Shown here: positions 1 through 49,946 of the stretch, one piece after another
Numbering within the stretch: position 1 is the first letter of the stretch
How the letters are laid out: the number at the start of each line of letters is the position of its first letter
Source of the DNA: Helicobacter jaachi
GTDB taxonomy: Bacteria; Campylobacterota; Campylobacteria; Campylobacterales; Helicobacteraceae
Assembly: GCF_000763135.2 (NCBI RefSeq)
Contig: NZ_JRPR02000006.1
Span: forward strand, 1 to 64,000
Direction: 5' to 3'
DNA: 64,000 bases
Made by a program: the position numbers and the translations under genes
The notes under the pieces: generated by a model
The model's database searches: none
What the model saw: only the letters and a program-made list of their open reading frames with translations
Told to the model about the DNA's origin: nothing

Positions 1-202
1 GTGATAAGACAAAGGAATAAGCATATACCAAAGAGTGCGCTTAGTGTTTGGTATGTTTGGCTTACATCAAATTGAGATACATCACTGCTATAAATAGCAT
101 AGGGAGTAAATACACAAATCATAAAATAAATATTAATAATAGCAAGGATTGAAATATTGCGATAATTTAAATATTCTTTAGGAGTAAGGGAGGTGTGGGG
201 AG
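1..202. repeat. Direct repeat, copy 1 (sulfatase N-terminal module)
   Basis: This stretch matches 4246-4447 with a single visible difference (A at 141, T at 4386) and diverges sharply after position 202. It encodes the first TM part of the sulfatase-type proteins on the minus strand. The left end of the repeat is outside the window. Such identity between paralogues suggests recent duplication or gene conversion. Confidence 0.93.
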
Positions 203-1034
203 TAAAGATTTTAGAAAAAAGATTTGTAACAAAAGAGGAGGATTGCGTAGTATTTGATTTGGGGTTATTATTAGATTCTGTAATTTTTATAGAATCTAGA
301 TTGTGTGTATTTGCAGAATCTGTCTCCTCCTTAGATTCTCTTACCCTCTTACAAAGTGTCTTGCACAAAGCAAATAGAGTATTACTTGTCCAATACAATA
401 CCAAACTACTAGGCATATCATAAAGTAAGATAAAAAAGATAAAGGCTATACATATGCCTTGTATTTTGCCTGCTGAAATCTTGCCTTTTAATACCATATT
501 TGTATTATCTGTGCGCGTATAATACACATTAAGCAAGGTAAAAATAAGCATAAGTATAGGCAATATATGAATAAAACTAAAGCTATCTCCTAAGAAATGT
601 ATAGAATCTGCTTTGCTTAAATCATCTATCCATAAAAAGCTAGCACCCTTTAGAGATTCTAAATGATTAAATAATATCCACACACTTATAAAGAATGGGA
701 TTTGTAAAAGTAATCCTCCTAGAGAGAATAGGGCATAGATGGGGTGGAAGTGGTGTTGTTTATAAAGTGTGCGGATATAGCTTTGGAGTTCTGCTCCTTT
801 AAAGACTTTTTTAAATTCTTTGATTTTAAGATTAAGCCTAGATTGCAAGATATTAAATTTTAAAGCCTGTTTATCGCTTAGATTAGTGAGCTTTAGTAAA
901 AATATATTAATGCCAAAGCTTAGAAAGATAATAGAGAGGGGGAGGCTGCCACAGAGCGCAAAAATTCCCTCAAACACAAAGCCCAAAGCACTTTGCAAGG
1001 GATAAATAAAAATGTAATAGAGTATCTCAAGCAT
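1..1034 (-). CDS. YidC/Oxa1-like domain fused to sulfatase-type membrane module (partial)
   Basis: The frame is open from an ATG at 1034 to the left edge, about 344 codons, so the C-terminus is outside the window. Residues 1-232 resemble YidC/Oxa1 insertases: a TM segment, a charged loop with LYKQHHFHP, a TM reading LLLQIPFFISVW, the block FLWIDDL, and a last TM ending in SSLVLYWT. A hydrophilic ES/DS-rich linker (about 233-270) follows. After it the protein matches the N-terminal TM region of the sulfatase-like protein encoded at 2559-4586, almost identically at the DNA level. The conserved arginine of the first YidC TM seems replaced by asparagine (SFGINIFLL). The ATG overlaps the stop of the TagF-like gene by 8 nt, which suggests coupled translation. 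Family membership is solid; fusion to a sulfatase C-terminal domain beyond the edge is inferred from the paralogue. Confidence 0.8.
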   Translation of the reverse strand, partial: MLEILYYIFIYPLQSALGFVFEGIFALCGSLPLSIIFLSFGINIFLLKLTNLSDKQALKFNILQSRLNLKIKEFKKVFKGAELQSYIRTLYKQHHFHPIYALFSLGGLLLQIPFFISVWILFNHLESLKGASFLWIDDLSKADSIHFLGDSFSFIHILPILMLIFTLLNVYYTRTDNTNMVLKGKISAGKIQGICIAFIFFILLYDMPSSLVLYWTSNTLFALCKTLCKRVRESKEETDSANTHNLDSIKITESNNNPKSNTTQSSSFVTNLFSKIFTPHTSLTPKEYLNYRNISILAIINIYFMICVFTPYAIYSSDVSQFDVSQTYQTLSALFGICLFLCLI

Positions 1035-2435
1035 ACGCCACCCCCTGCTCTATCATCTTATCTAGCTCTCTTAGGCGCGAGATAGGCTGTATATAGGCTT
1101 TAAGCCTAGATTCTATCACTTCGCGCTCAATTTTCAAAAGCTCAAGCGCAGACACCATTCCTGCATGATGAGGGTGCTGCCATAAAAGTGCTTTTATCTC
1201 ATCAATGCTTTGTGCGTGTGAATACAGCGCACTATCTACTAACTCCTTTATGCGCGGGAAATCTACAGCCTTAATCCGCCCGCCAATCCTATCTAGCGCC
1301 TTAAAAGTCCATATAGAATCTCGATTTATATCCGCCATATCATAGCCGCTTAAATCCATATCGTTATCGATAGTTATCACAGGCTTGCCTTCCAAGCACA
1401 CAAAATCAAATATCACACTAGAAAAATCCGAAATCATCATATCTGCGCGCGCAAAAGCTAAAATATTAGGCGTCCCCTCGTCCCATTGCACATTGTCGTA
1501 GCTTTTTAGAGTATTTTGAAGCGTGTGGATATTCTCCCGCTCACGTGGGCTAATGAAGCTCTGTGGGTGAGGGCGAATGATGATATTATATTGCGTTTGC
1601 GCAAGTGGAAGTAATAGCTCTAAGCCATATTTGCTAAGCAAGGTCTCCTTTCCCCATGATGGCGCGACTAGAATGGTGGGCGCTTGAGATTTTGCGCTAG
1701 AATTTATATCTTGCTTTATGTGCGAGGCAGCATTACTTAGCTCATCAAGATAAGTTGAACCCGTGATGGCAATGTATTTGGCGCGCACATTATGTGCAGA
1801 TTCTATATCGCGCACAAAATCGCGCTGCACAGCATTTGCTACCAATACAGAATCAAAATAATCCACGCCAAACACGCGATAAGTCATAGGAGAGAGCGAA
1901 TGCACAATATGGCAATAGTGCGCCACACCGCGATTACGCTTAATGTGTAACACATCTAGTCCGGGCGTTGTTAGCACAAACACATCGGCGCGCAAACGAT
2001 TTAAGAAGCTATATGCTTTGTTCCCCTGCCCTATGTAAAGAAAAGTGCCGCGAGTGCTAGATTCTGTGCGCTTTAGTGCTGGGTCAGTAGTGCTTGAAGT
2101 GTAATAAGTATAAGGGTGCTTAAGAGAATCTAGCGCATCAAGAACGGGCTTAAAAGTGCCATAATACTGGTCTCCCTCGCAATAAAAGACAATCCCACTA
2201 GCGTTGCTCTGGTAGGTTTGGCTGGGCTTACCCCCCCCCCCCCGATAATTATGGGGTTTGCGCCAAAGCTAAAAGAAGTGATTTTATAAAAAAGATTTTT
2301 AACAAAAAACACCGCAGAGGCAAAGAGTGCCACTGCAGAGGAGAGTAACAGCGAGCCACTGCCCGGGTCAAGATAAGCAAACGCCGCGTTTGGCGCCATA
2401 CAAAGCAGGAAAACTAAAAAACACCATCTTTTCAC
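1027..2435 (-). CDS. TagF/TagB-like CDP-glycerol glycerophosphotransferase, phase-variable (interrupted at the poly-G tract)
   Basis: The gene starts at a GTG (2435) preceded by AAAGG. It encodes a signal or TM segment, the small-membrane-protein motif AYLDPGSGS, a second TM, then a run of 13 G (13 C on the plus strand, 2231-2243). At 13 the frame shifts and stops at 2130. At 11 or 14 it stays open to 1027 and gives about 468 residues. The downstream part is a glycerophosphotransferase of the TagF/TagB family, with RPHPQS and SDFSSVIFD as the usual active-site signatures. It would transfer glycerol-phosphate or a similar polyol-phosphate to a surface glycan; the substrate is inferred. Its stop overlaps the start of the YidC fusion gene. 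The sequence shown is in the OFF phase unless the tract length is miscalled. Confidence 0.85.
2231..2243 (-). repeat. Poly-G (13) contingency tract in TagF-like gene
   Basis: There are thirteen consecutive C on the plus strand. Read on the coding strand, the tract follows codons for III and encodes glycines. The full gene is in frame with 11 or 14 residues, so 13 is an OFF length. Slipped-strand mispairing at G/C tracts is the known phase-variation mechanism in Helicobacter and Campylobacter. Confidence 0.9.
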
Positions 2436-2558: not shown

Positions 2559-4586
2559 TTAATGTGCATGGAGCAACTCGCTTGGGATTTGATTATCCTG
2601 CAGAGGAATGCTTCTCCAATGCTCTTTGTTGTGCATATCGCCCTCCACGCTGTATGCGGCATTAAAAATCCATTGGTTTGTCTTGTGCAAGTCAATTATC
2701 CACGAAATAGGCAAAGTATGGATAACTTTGCGATTTTTAGGATAATTTTTAAGCACATTTGGCGCGACATTTGGGCAACCTTTGGGTAGATTCTCACAAA
2801 AAATACTCACTATGTCATAGTTTGCCATGAGGCGAGAATCTACCTCCAACGCACCTTGTGCATTGAAATCCTTAAACAAAAACAAAGCATCAGGGCGCGA
2901 ATAAATAGGTATATCAATACTATCAAATCCGCTATGGTCGCTCACTACAAAAATTTGTGTGTTATCATAAATATCATTATCCTTAAGCCATTGCACATAA
3001 TCATTTAAATACAACAACGCACACGCCTCCGTATCATAGTGCTGATAATAATATGCGCGTATTGCCTCATTTGTCTCTATCATTTGCGCGTTATGCTCAT
3101 AATCATTCCACGCGCTTTTATCACTAAAAAATTGACATTTTTTGTTGTGAAAATACATTCTATAAGGCACATGTGTCATTAACGAATGCAGATATTTAAA
3201 TGTGGGCTTAGTTGCATTTGTATTGCCAATATGCGTATAGGCGTAAAATGATGAAGAAGCCGTGATACTTGCGAGTGTATCGCTATTTTTATGCTCTGTA
3301 TCCCTTAAAAGCCACATGCCATTGCGATAGATTCTAGGGCGGAAATAAAGCTCTGGTGCGAAGCGAAATAGTCCGACACTAAAAAGCTGCACGATTTGAT
3401 AATCTTTATAAGTGTTTTTGTAAATACGCTCAACCTGCTCTTGTAAATTTTGCTCATAAAGATAATAACTTTGGAATCTGCCTAAATTTTCAATGGCAAA
3501 AATACCGCTTTGCTGATATTGCTTAAGGGCTTTGATACCCTGCGCACTCACAGCAAGCGAATAAGCCACATCATAGCCATTTTGCACAAAATGCGCTCCC
3601 ATATCATCAAAGGCTTTTGTGATACTCTCTTTAAGATTATCACCCCTTGCATTCATATTATACGCGGCATAATACTCACCGCCAATAAGTGTAGCAATAC
3701 TATGGATAGTAGAATCTGTAGTAGATAGCGTATTATCAAAAAGCACAAAGCCTGAGAGATTGTCTTTTAAATATGGAAACTGCGCAAAAATATAGGGCGT
3801 ATGTGAGCCGCTAAACATATCAAGCACAAAAATGACAATATTTTTATGCGTTTTTGAATACGAAAATAACTCATTTTCATAAGGCGCAATACTTTGAGAG
3901 CTAGATTCTGTATTTTTTGGCGTAGAATATAGAATCTGCACAAAAGACACGCAAGTAAGTATGCTTAAAGTAATAAAAATAATGCCAAAGATATGTTTAA
4001 GCCATTTAAAAAATACTAACACAACTAAGCAAGATAGCCCAACAGATAGAAAAAAATAAGTAAATCGCTGCGTGCGAAACTGCATATCTAAAAAGGCGGG
4101 ATTTTGTATCACAAAATGATTCATCGCCCCATAATTCCCAGCCAATACAAAAGTATAAACCAACCCGATGCAAAGTATCACACTCACACCATAACTGCCT
4201 AGTTTTAGTAATCTTGTGTGATAAAAAAAGCTTGTAATGTAAATCGTGATAAGACAAAGGAATAAGCATATACCAAAGAGTGCGCTTAGTGTTTGGTATG
4301 TTTGGCTTACATCAAATTGAGATACATCACTGCTATAAATAGCATAGGGAGTAAATACACAAATCATAAAATAAATATTAATAATTGCAAGGATTGAAAT
4401 ATTGCGATAATTTAAATATTCTTTAGGAGTAAGGGAGGTGTGGGGAGGGAATAGAGTGTGAATAAGCCTAGCAATATGACCTTTGCACAAAGCATCGCCA
4501 CAAGTACTAGAATCCTTAGCGAGTGGCTCTTTTTGGGATTGCACGGGCTTTTTTGTGCATAGATTTTTGCCAAAGCCACTAAACAT
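2559..4586 (-). CDS. Membrane sulfatase/phosphoglycerol transferase-like protein
   Basis: A protein of about 675 residues. I prefer the ATG at 4586, although TTG at 4592 is in frame just upstream. The N-terminal 55 residues are a soluble linker, followed by five or so TM segments (about 65-220). A periplasmic alkaline-phosphatase-superfamily domain follows, with the metal/nucleophile strand NIVIFVLDMFSGSHT near residue 250, HSLMTHVPYRMYF in the middle, and the metal-binding VVSDHSGF near 580. LtaS, OpgB and arylsulfatases share this fold. Next to a TagF-like gene, a role in adding or transferring phosphoglycerol-like groups on a surface glycan is a reasonable inference. It is a paralogue of the module at the left edge but has no YidC-like domain. 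Its start overlaps the possible end of the leader frame at 4799. Confidence 0.82.
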   Translation of the reverse strand: MFSGFGKNLCTKKPVQSQKEPLAKDSSTCGDALCKGHIARLIHTLFPPHTSLTPKEYLNYRNISILAIINIYFMICVFTPYAIYSSDVSQFDVSQTYQTLSALFGICLFLCLITIYITSFFYHTRLLKLGSYGVSVILCIGLVYTFVLAGNYGAMNHFVIQNPAFLDMQFRTQRFTYFFLSVGLSCLVVLVFFKWLKHIFGIIFITLSILTCVSFVQILYSTPKNTESSSQSIAPYENELFSYSKTHKNIVIFVLDMFSGSHTPYIFAQFPYLKDNLSGFVLFDNTLSTTDSTIHSIATLIGGEYYAAYNMNARGDNLKESITKAFDDMGAHFVQNGYDVAYSLAVSAQGIKALKQYQQSGIFAIENLGRFQSYYLYEQNLQEQVERIYKNTYKDYQIVQLFSVGLFRFAPELYFRPRIYRNGMWLLRDTEHKNSDTLASITASSSFYAYTHIGNTNATKPTFKYLHSLMTHVPYRMYFHNKKCQFFSDKSAWNDYEHNAQMIETNEAIRAYYYQHYDTEACALLYLNDYVQWLKDNDIYDNTQIFVVSDHSGFDSIDIPIYSRPDALFLFKDFNAQGALEVDSRLMANYDIVSIFCENLPKGCPNVAPNVLKNYPKNRKVIHTLPISWIIDLHKTNQWIFNAAYSVEGDMHNKEHWRSIPLQDNQIPSELLHAH
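4246..4447. repeat. Direct repeat, copy 2 (sulfatase N-terminal module)
   Basis: This is the partner of 1-202, with one mismatch. The copies are in the same orientation 4,245 bp apart, so recombination between them would delete or duplicate the TagF-like gene together with parts of both sulfatase genes. Confidence 0.93.
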
Positions 4587-4679
4587 CGCCAAAGCCCTGC
4601 GCGCAAAGTAAATCGCCTACAAAATATAAAAAGAAGTAAAAATAAAAGGAAAAAAATAGAGCGTAAAAGTAAAAGGAGA

Positions 4680-4799
4680 TTAAATAACTATAAGACTGCC
4701 CCCCCCCCCCCGCAGAGGCATTGCGCTAGCGCGCACCAAACGCACTAATGCAAAATGCTTATAAATGCAGCTATAAGAGCCATATTGTAAAAATCCCAT
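4680..4799 (-). CDS. Short phase-variable leader reading frame upstream of the sulfatase-like gene
   Basis: An ATG at 4799 is preceded by GGAGG at 7 nt spacing. The frame encodes 26 or so residues and then enters a 13-G tract (4699-4711). At 13 G it stops at 4680 (39 residues). At 12 it would stop at a TAG near 4690. At 11 or 14 it continues as an aromatic-rich hydrophobic segment (72-73 residues) and stops at 4579, overlapping the ATG of the sulfatase-like gene by 8 nt. No similarity is recognised. It could be a real small membrane protein, a coupling leader or the remnant of a larger gene. The good ribosome site and the tract favour a functional, switchable frame. Confidence 0.5.
   Translation of the reverse strand: MGFLQYGSYSCIYKHFALVRLVRASAMPLRGGGGSLIVI
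4699..4711 (-). repeat. Poly-G (13) contingency tract in leader frame
   Basis: There are thirteen C on the plus strand. The tract lies in frame with the ATG at 4799. Only lengths of 3n+2 (11 or 14) carry translation to the start of the sulfatase-like gene; 13 does not. Confidence 0.88.
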
Positions 4800-48220: not shown

Positions 48221-49946
48221 ATGAATAGGCATTTTAACGGGGGGGGGGGATAATCTAAAGAAGCTCTGCTCCACTCGCAGACTTAGTGTTATTTTATTTT
48301 TACTTTTTGTATGCGCTTATTGCGTGTTTTTGGTGTCCTTTAGCCGCTATGGATTTAATCTTGATGATATTTGGATGTGGCTTGAAATTTATGAACATAA
48401 ACCCGTATGGAATGGCTACAATCCTAGCATGGGGCGCTTTTTCCCACTTGCAAGCCTTGACCTTAATGTGCTTATGCAATTCTCTACCTCGCCTTATATA
48501 TTTTTTGCTTTTAATGCACTACTAGCGCTTATATTTGCGCTCACTTGGTTTTATATGCTCTCTTTTGTAAGCCAAAAAATTTGGCTTAATATCCTACTTA
48601 TCGCATTTTTTATGCTAAGCATGGGATTTGTGATAGTTACTTTTGGGATTTGCTATCCTGAGCGGCTGCTTGTCGTGTTTTTAAGCATTTTTATTATAAC
48701 TTCAATGCTCTACCTGCGCGCTCCTACGCTAAGCCTTTTTATGCTAGGCATTTTGATGATTAATCTATGCATTTATCTTAAAGAACCAATGTTTATTGCA
48801 GCATTTGTCTTTGGCTTTATGCTCTTTATCTCCACGCTGCGCATAAGCTTCGTAGATTCTATAAACACAGAATCTACACACTCTCCAAATGTATCGCCCA
48901 TTCAAGCAGATTCTATAAATTCCCACAAAAAAGCGCTGCGCTTCTATGCGCTAGGCATTATGAGTAGCGCGGCTCTTTATGCTTTAATATATGCCCTATT
49001 TATCCTCCCGCAAATGACAAAGGTTTATAACAGAGCCACGCCATTTACTAATACCCTTGTGGTAAAAATACAAGGCTGGATAAATTTTATCCTTAATGAT
49101 GGGCTAATCATCGCTCTTACTCTAGCGATTGTGTGCTATAGAATCTACCTTATTTTACGCGGGCGCGATAAGATTAGGGCGCTTTTTGATGGGCTTTTGT
49201 GCGCGTGTTTGGCGTATATGCTTGTATATTTTGCGCTTGGGATTTTTGAAGTATATTATTTGCTGCCTTGCTATATATGGAGCGGCGTGGCGATTATGTA
49301 TTATTTATTTACGCAAGGCTATATTAAGCGCCTTGTGATGAAACTTTGCATCGCATTTGGACTGCTTGGATTTTTTAGCAGCTCGTTGCCTATGGGATTT
49401 TATACGATGATAAATCTTAAAGCAATGGCTGTGCAGTTTAATGAGCTTCTTGATTTTAGCGCCAAATACATCGCCCAAAACCCACACACGCGTATATATT
49501 TTGATGGCACGGGCAGGGGGCGAGATATTTACCCAGACTGGTATGTGCGCTACTTTATTGAATACCTTAATAGAATCTACAATGTAAAAGATTTTGATGT
49601 AATGAGCGCTATGCCAAATGGCAAAGATATCGTGCTAGATTCTATAAGCCCTTATAGTTATTATAATAACCTTACAATCACCAAGCCGCAAGTAGGCGAT
49701 TTACTTATCCTTAATAACACCACAAGCATTTATGCTGATAGTGCTTATATTGCGCAGCTTGCCTCATCGCACTCCCTTATATTCACAAGCACATTTTCAA
49801 GCATTCCCTACATCAGTATCCGCTCTGTGATTAAGGGGATAAATTTTAAATTTATCGGTGCTCAAAGCGCACTATTAGGCAATGCAAATATGTTTCATCT
49901 GCCGTTAGAAACCTATGTCTTTAAAGTGCAAAATCTTGCACTTTAA
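48221..49946 (+). CDS. Polytopic GT-C/GtrII-like membrane glycosyltransferase, phase-variable (interrupted at the poly-G tract)
   Basis: The start MNRHFN is followed by an 11-G tract; at 11 the frame stops at 48253. At 10 or 13 G it continues DNLKKLCSTRRLSVILF into the long frame and yields about 574 residues. Ten or more TM segments follow. The first periplasmic loop holds RYGFNLDDIWMW, an acidic motif placed as in GtrII-type and other GT-C glycosyltransferases that use lipid-linked sugars. The C-terminal part is periplasmic (TRIYFDGTGRGRDIYPDWY). A surface-glycan glucosylation role is inferred. A loop near residue 215 carries a 71-bp repeat also found in ftsK. Confidence 0.75.
48239..48249 (+). 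repeat. Poly-G (11) contingency tract in GT-C-like gene
   Basis: Eleven G directly after the AAC of MNRHFN. The full gene needs 10 or 13; 11 ends the frame at TAA 48251-48253. Confidence 0.9.
48852..48922. repeat. 71-bp coding repeat, copy in GT-C-like gene
   Basis: About 65 of 71 positions match the block in ftsK (40335-40405), in the same reading frame, encoding VDSINTEST...ADSIN. It sits in a loop between TM segments. Confidence 0.85.

Follow-up and report, generated by a model that had tools for sequence, protein, structure and literature searches.

The gene at the edge of this stretch raises the question of what a domain of the YidC/Oxa1 insertase family does when it is carried in one frame with a membrane enzyme of the sulfatase fold. 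The window analysed here is the first 64 kb of contig C6 (G000:C6:1-64000) of a 1.9-Mb genome in 35 contigs. On its minus strand, positions 3-1034 form a single open frame of 344 aa that extends past base 1, at the contig edge. A preliminary description of this DNA had claimed that one continuous frame holds the late YidC landmarks, a linker and a transmembrane block of sulfatase type. The frame bears this out: it contains the three landmarks named there (LYKQHHFHP, FLWIDDL and SSLVLYWT), a linker, and the block, which is shared with a stand-alone sulfatase gene. The parts of the frame are as follows.

348-1034, minus strand: YidC-like (Oxa1 superfamily) domain, residues 1-229, with five core transmembrane helices and Asn at the groove-arginine position (residue 43).
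180-347, minus strand: variable linker, rich in Ser, Asn and Lys, approximately residues 230-285, predicted to be cytosolic.
3-179, minus strand: first part of the five-helix transmembrane module that belongs to the sulfatase half; the rest of the module and the catalytic domain are on contig C14 (G000:C14:16571-18340, minus strand).

The N-terminal domain matches Pfam 60KD_IMP (PF02096) at residues 33-227 with 75.5 bits (cut-off 35) and NCBIfam yidC_oxa1_cterm with 85.9 bits versus a cut-off of 84.3. Where the contig ends, the frame runs into a repeat, and three further features are needed to follow it.

1-202, no strand assigned: repeat copy 1 (transmembrane module), where the contig breaks.
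4246-4447, no strand assigned: repeat copy 2, within the stand-alone sulfatase gene.
2559-4592, minus strand: stand-alone sulfatase-family paralogue of 677 aa, with the same transmembrane module and a different catalytic domain.

The two repeat copies differ by one mismatch only, and a contig break inside a repeat with a fixed overlap is a typical outcome of short-read assemblers. Window positions 1-99 are identical to the terminal 99 bases of C14, no alternative overlap length fits, and C14 is the sole contig end that matches the window edge. Joining C14 and C6 gives a frame of 901 aa with no stop codon, in the order YidC-like domain, linker, five-helix module and sulfatase-fold catalytic domain, and the run of genes on C14 that lies 3′ of the fusion has the same order as in G004 and G006, two relatives with the locus on one contig. 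Because of the 99-base overlap in the repeat, the stop-free frame and the shared gene order, the join is well supported, short of the proof that reads would give. The leftward extension suggested in the preliminary description, which had considered that the catalytic domain might be absent, thus finds it outside the window, on C14, where the fusion matches Pfam Sulfatase with 39.4 bits (cut-off 25). In this assembly, a run of 11 C residues (C11) at position 16686 of C14 causes a frameshift close to the C terminus, so that about the last 50 residues are unlike those of the relatives. That the contig edge has joined unrelated genes might be suspected from the window starting in a repeat that is also present in another gene, but this is highly improbable, as the YidC-like domain, the linker and the first transmembrane helices form one frame within one contig, the whole fusion lies on single contigs in many other genomes, and the gene order on C14 agrees with that of the two relatives. 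As the origin of the fusion family, an assembly artefact is ruled out by the single-contig fusions elsewhere and by synteny. In this genome, the fusion protein and the stand-alone sulfatase are identical over about 100 residues of the transmembrane module and differ on both sides of it, a pattern indicative of recent recombination between their genes.

The systematic scan covered Campylobacterota and found the YidC-like protein in 17 of 397 genomes, in six genera of one family, and also in one genome from another family (G054), giving 18 carriers. A search for the same domain pair, as the preliminary description had proposed, returned an uninterrupted fusion of 840-971 aa on a single contig in ten other scanned genomes (G033, G040, G022, G046, G031, G310, G299, G302, G294, and G117), and the fusion is also present in H. 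bilis and in a record labelled H. rappini, which is apparently the same record as G310. The frame is broken inside the catalytic domain at a G14 tract in G004 and interrupted by an assembly gap in H. cinaedi. The halves are separate genes with a 4-bp overlap in G032 and G120, and the YidC-like gene is likewise separate in G002, G036, and G054. Because the split forms are scattered on the tree of the YidC-like domain, which requires three changes, fusion or fission has occurred more than once, in a direction that the tree leaves undecided. A scan of a multi-phylum genome collection with patterns from this protein, which reaches close relatives only, yielded hits in H. bilis, H. rappini, and H. 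cinaedi alone. A plasmid search with the fusion gave weak matches only, over the YidC part, which were ordinary YidC where annotated, and a literature search found no description of YidC combined with a sulfatase, LtaS, phosphonate or glycerophosphotransferase. H. bilis ATCC 51630 seems to have repeated copies of the 2.9-kb fusion gene, as it is present on three contigs (L057, L058, and L059) at 99.9-100% identity and with different flanks.

The preliminary description had placed the fusion in a surface-polymer cluster with a TagF-like partner, and this setting proved to hold, the TagF-like gene being linked in every carrier.

1027-2435, minus strand: TagF-like gene (PF04464), which overlaps the start of the fusion by 8 bp and whose reading frame is disrupted in this assembly by a C13 tract (2231-2243).

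This gene is immediately upstream in all 18 loci: in 15 it overlaps by 4-14 bp, and in the others the gap does not exceed 22 bp. Of the 397 genomes, 21 have a member of the TagF-like family, among them all 17 YidC-like carriers (Fisher p ~2e-26, uncorrected for relatedness, which makes the association look stronger). The four TagF-like genomes without the YidC-like gene hold broken fragments (G003 and G024), a contig end (G020) or a distant match (G079). Because G003 and G024 have TagF-like remnants without a YidC-like gene, and G003 also has sulfatase remnants, loss of the whole module in these two genomes is suggested. The start of the TagF-like protein (window 2244-2435) is a membrane segment with YLDPGSGS, and YLDPGTGS is found at the same place in G302 and G054.

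Genes that follow this core differ between genomes. A fusion of PEP mutase and cytidylyltransferase domains, a phosphonopyruvate decarboxylase and an AEP aminotransferase are found in G022, G117, G120, G032, and G002; PEP mutase, the decarboxylase and an iron alcohol dehydrogenase are found in this genome, G299, and G310, a set that would fit hydroxyethylphosphonate; and a nucleotidyltransferase-choline kinase fusion with an EamA transporter is found in G036, G046, G031, and G040. PEP mutase and phosphonopyruvate decarboxylase score above their NCBIfam cut-offs and the AEP aminotransferase just below its own; adjoining the core of G302 and G294, no headgroup supply genes were recognised. The neighbour genes are thus predicted to supply aminoethylphosphonate, a hydroxyethylphosphonate-like group or CDP-choline. 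The preliminary description's "self-contained" machine does not fit this arrangement, as the module relies on separate genes for the activated headgroup. LicD is a usual transferase for such groups, and a match to it was found in only 3 of the 17 carriers and not in this genome. The module resembles the Lic1 (phosphocholine) and Pnt (phosphonyl tailoring) systems in its genes for CDP-choline, or for a phosphonate and its cytidylyltransferase, with the type varying by genome, and in providing a precursor for surface decoration in a phase-variable way, namely CDP-choline or, as PntC suggests by analogy, CMP-phosphonate (PMC6697681). It differs from them in that 14 of the 17 carriers lack a LicD match and have a core of TagF-like, YidC-like and sulfatase components beside the supply genes instead. 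The 993-aa protein at L011:12245-15226, with APS-kinase-like and PEP-synthase-like domains, is conserved in this cluster in both G004 and G006.

In the enzyme half, hydropathy indicates about five helices between the variable linker and the catalytic domain, and we infer that the latter lies on the outer side of the membrane. Six residues, Asn207, Asp214, Thr251, His432, Asp516, and His517, are invariant in 20 aligned family sequences. With Thr251, by its position and from general knowledge, taken to be the nucleophile, the domain appears to keep the residues expected of a Thr-nucleophile transferase of the alkaline phosphatase superfamily. Profile comparison with solved structures gave weak matches to sulfatases, phosphonate monoester hydrolase and lipoteichoic acid synthase, of which the last was weak (E = 0.009) and the sulfatases matched better. 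Because these matches are weak, the assignment by sequence is clear at the level of the superfamily and not at that of the exact substrate. LtaS, OpgB and EptA transfer phospholipid headgroups; the fusion shares with enzymes of this type about five transmembrane helices followed by a domain of predicted sulfatase fold, the invariant Thr at the nucleophile position, and the His and Asp-His metal ligands, whereas it is remote from them in sequence, has a YidC-like domain attached and is linked to phosphonate or choline activation genes. Structure predictions of a relative's full fusion (L060, 962 aa) and of the YidC-like domain of the window, from alignments of six and four sequences, had mean pLDDT values of 37 and 39, too low for a usable model and probably so due to these small alignments.

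The YidC-like domain belongs to the YidC/Oxa1 insertase family (PF02096) by its five-helix core, its landmark motifs and a match above the curated cut-off, which was obtained in all 18 carriers. It differs from the family in lacking the large periplasmic domain, in being fused to, or operonic with, an enzyme, and in its much weaker scores, with 66-85 bits for full-length YidC-like copies versus 208-223 bits for the normal YidC copies. A normal YidC is also present in all 18 carriers, and replacement of it by the YidC-like protein is ruled out. In a joint tree, the two kinds form separate clades on opposite sides of a branch with support of 100/100; its long branches make the finer branching among the YidC-like sequences unreliable. 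The YidC-like domains keep the core helices as well as LQ.PFF and PS.L.LYW as motifs and show consistent substitutions: the cytosolic hairpin has His where normal YidCs have Asn, and Lys takes the place of Pro behind the first core helix. The groove arginine, described as strictly conserved in the YidC family and at a position that is positively charged in its homologues (PMC8920935), is Arg in 17 of 17 normal Campylobacterota YidCs and Asn (15), Gln (5) or Arg (0) in 20 YidC-like domains. The Tyr517 position is Trp in the YidC-like proteins, and Trp also occurs there in normal Campylobacterota YidCs, which retain the Arg.

These observations bear on the suggestion in the preliminary description that the YidC half might insert or hold its own fused enzyme or the TagF-like partner. 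On this view, the domain would have no role in the chemistry and would act as an insertase or chaperone dedicated to one client, either the transmembrane module of its enzyme or the TagF-like protein with its membrane anchor. In favour, the domain retains the YidC sequence signature, these supposed clients are encoded next to it in every genome, and the groove arginine of E. coli YidC is dispensable as long as Tyr517 is intact (PMC8920935). However, the arginine is replaced in every readable member, S. mutans YidC2, which also has Trp at the Tyr517 position, needs its arginine (PMC8920935), and a normal YidC is kept in each genome. Moreover, G042 has stand-alone sulfatases with the same transmembrane module, yet its YidC-like gene survives only as a broken remnant. 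We regard a dedicated insertase as rather unlikely. The other part of the suggestion, that the YidC half cooperates with the enzyme, is favoured by the gene order, which is conserved, and by the finding that fused forms coexist with split ones.

Comparison of the loci establishes a conserved core, made up of a TagF-like transferase, a YidC-like domain and a putative Thr-nucleophile sulfatase-fold enzyme, linked to interchangeable genes for predicted small, CDP-activated headgroups. The probable role of the gene set is to attach phosphonate or phosphocholine groups to the cell surface. We suggest, with a probability of about 0.5, that a phase-variable module for surface decoration has the fusion as its membrane component, with the TagF-like protein loading the headgroup, the YidC-like domain passing the lipid and the fused domain performing the transfer. 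In this scheme, the cytosolic TagF-like enzyme would use the CDP- or CMP-activated headgroup to load a lipid; the YidC-like domain, altered in its groove and no longer a general insertase, would move the loaded lipid across the inner membrane to its outer face; and the fused periplasmic domain would pass the headgroup on to a glycan or lipid of the surface, in the manner of LtaS, OpgB and EptA.

The lipid-passing step is the least certain of the scheme and may fail even if the rest holds; EptA-type enzymes are not known to need a dedicated lipid translocator, which counts against it. Because PF04464 enzymes normally act on polymers, the TagF-like protein may also act on a glycan and not on a lipid. 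Passage of a lipid by the YidC-like domain is suggested by the scrambling of phospholipids by E. coli YidC in vitro, lipid movement having been shown for insertases reconstituted in liposomes (PMC10491306), and by this analogy we hold the step as a tentative proposal, somewhat below even odds. Going further, a YidC-superfamily protein might have turned into a dedicated carrier that takes a phosphonate or phosphocholine lipid from the TagF-like enzyme and hands it to the fused periplasmic transferase; we consider this doubtful, and, if true, it would be a new LicD-free route for surface decoration. A domain serving only as a scaffold, which tethers the TagF-like protein and the sulfatase-fold enzyme in one complex, would agree with the constant linkage to both partners and with the existence of fused as well as split forms, but would alone leave the conserved pattern of the core helices and the cytosolic hairpin (HPI.AL, LQ.PFF, and PS.L.LYW) unexplained, and we think it quite improbable.

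In surface phosphonate tailoring, the steps after formation of the C-P bond have been described as enigmatic, and that carbohydrate or lipid acceptors take up activated AEP is no more than a presumption (PMC6697681). The surface-decoration module proposed here would be a concrete candidate for the transfer step, common to the phosphonate and phosphocholine types, and its YidC-like domain would be a natural test of the Oxa1 fold specialising for lipid movement.

In most loci, the TagF-like gene contains a poly-G/C tract of 8-15 bases or is closely preceded by one; several neighbouring genes have such tracts too, and the window has one beside the stand-alone sulfatase gene.

4699-4711, no strand assigned: C13 tract upstream of the stand-alone sulfatase gene, a possible expression switch.

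In C. jejuni, switching of a CDP-glycerol glycerophosphotransferase gene has been described to alter the capsule and phage sensitivity (PMC8949473). This phase-variable enzyme, which is connected with resistance to phage CP39, may be comparable in kind to the TagF-like protein, and the abstract mentions no YidC-like or sulfatase partner for it. Two more G11 tracts are found at window positions 48239 and 50194, outside the cluster studied here.
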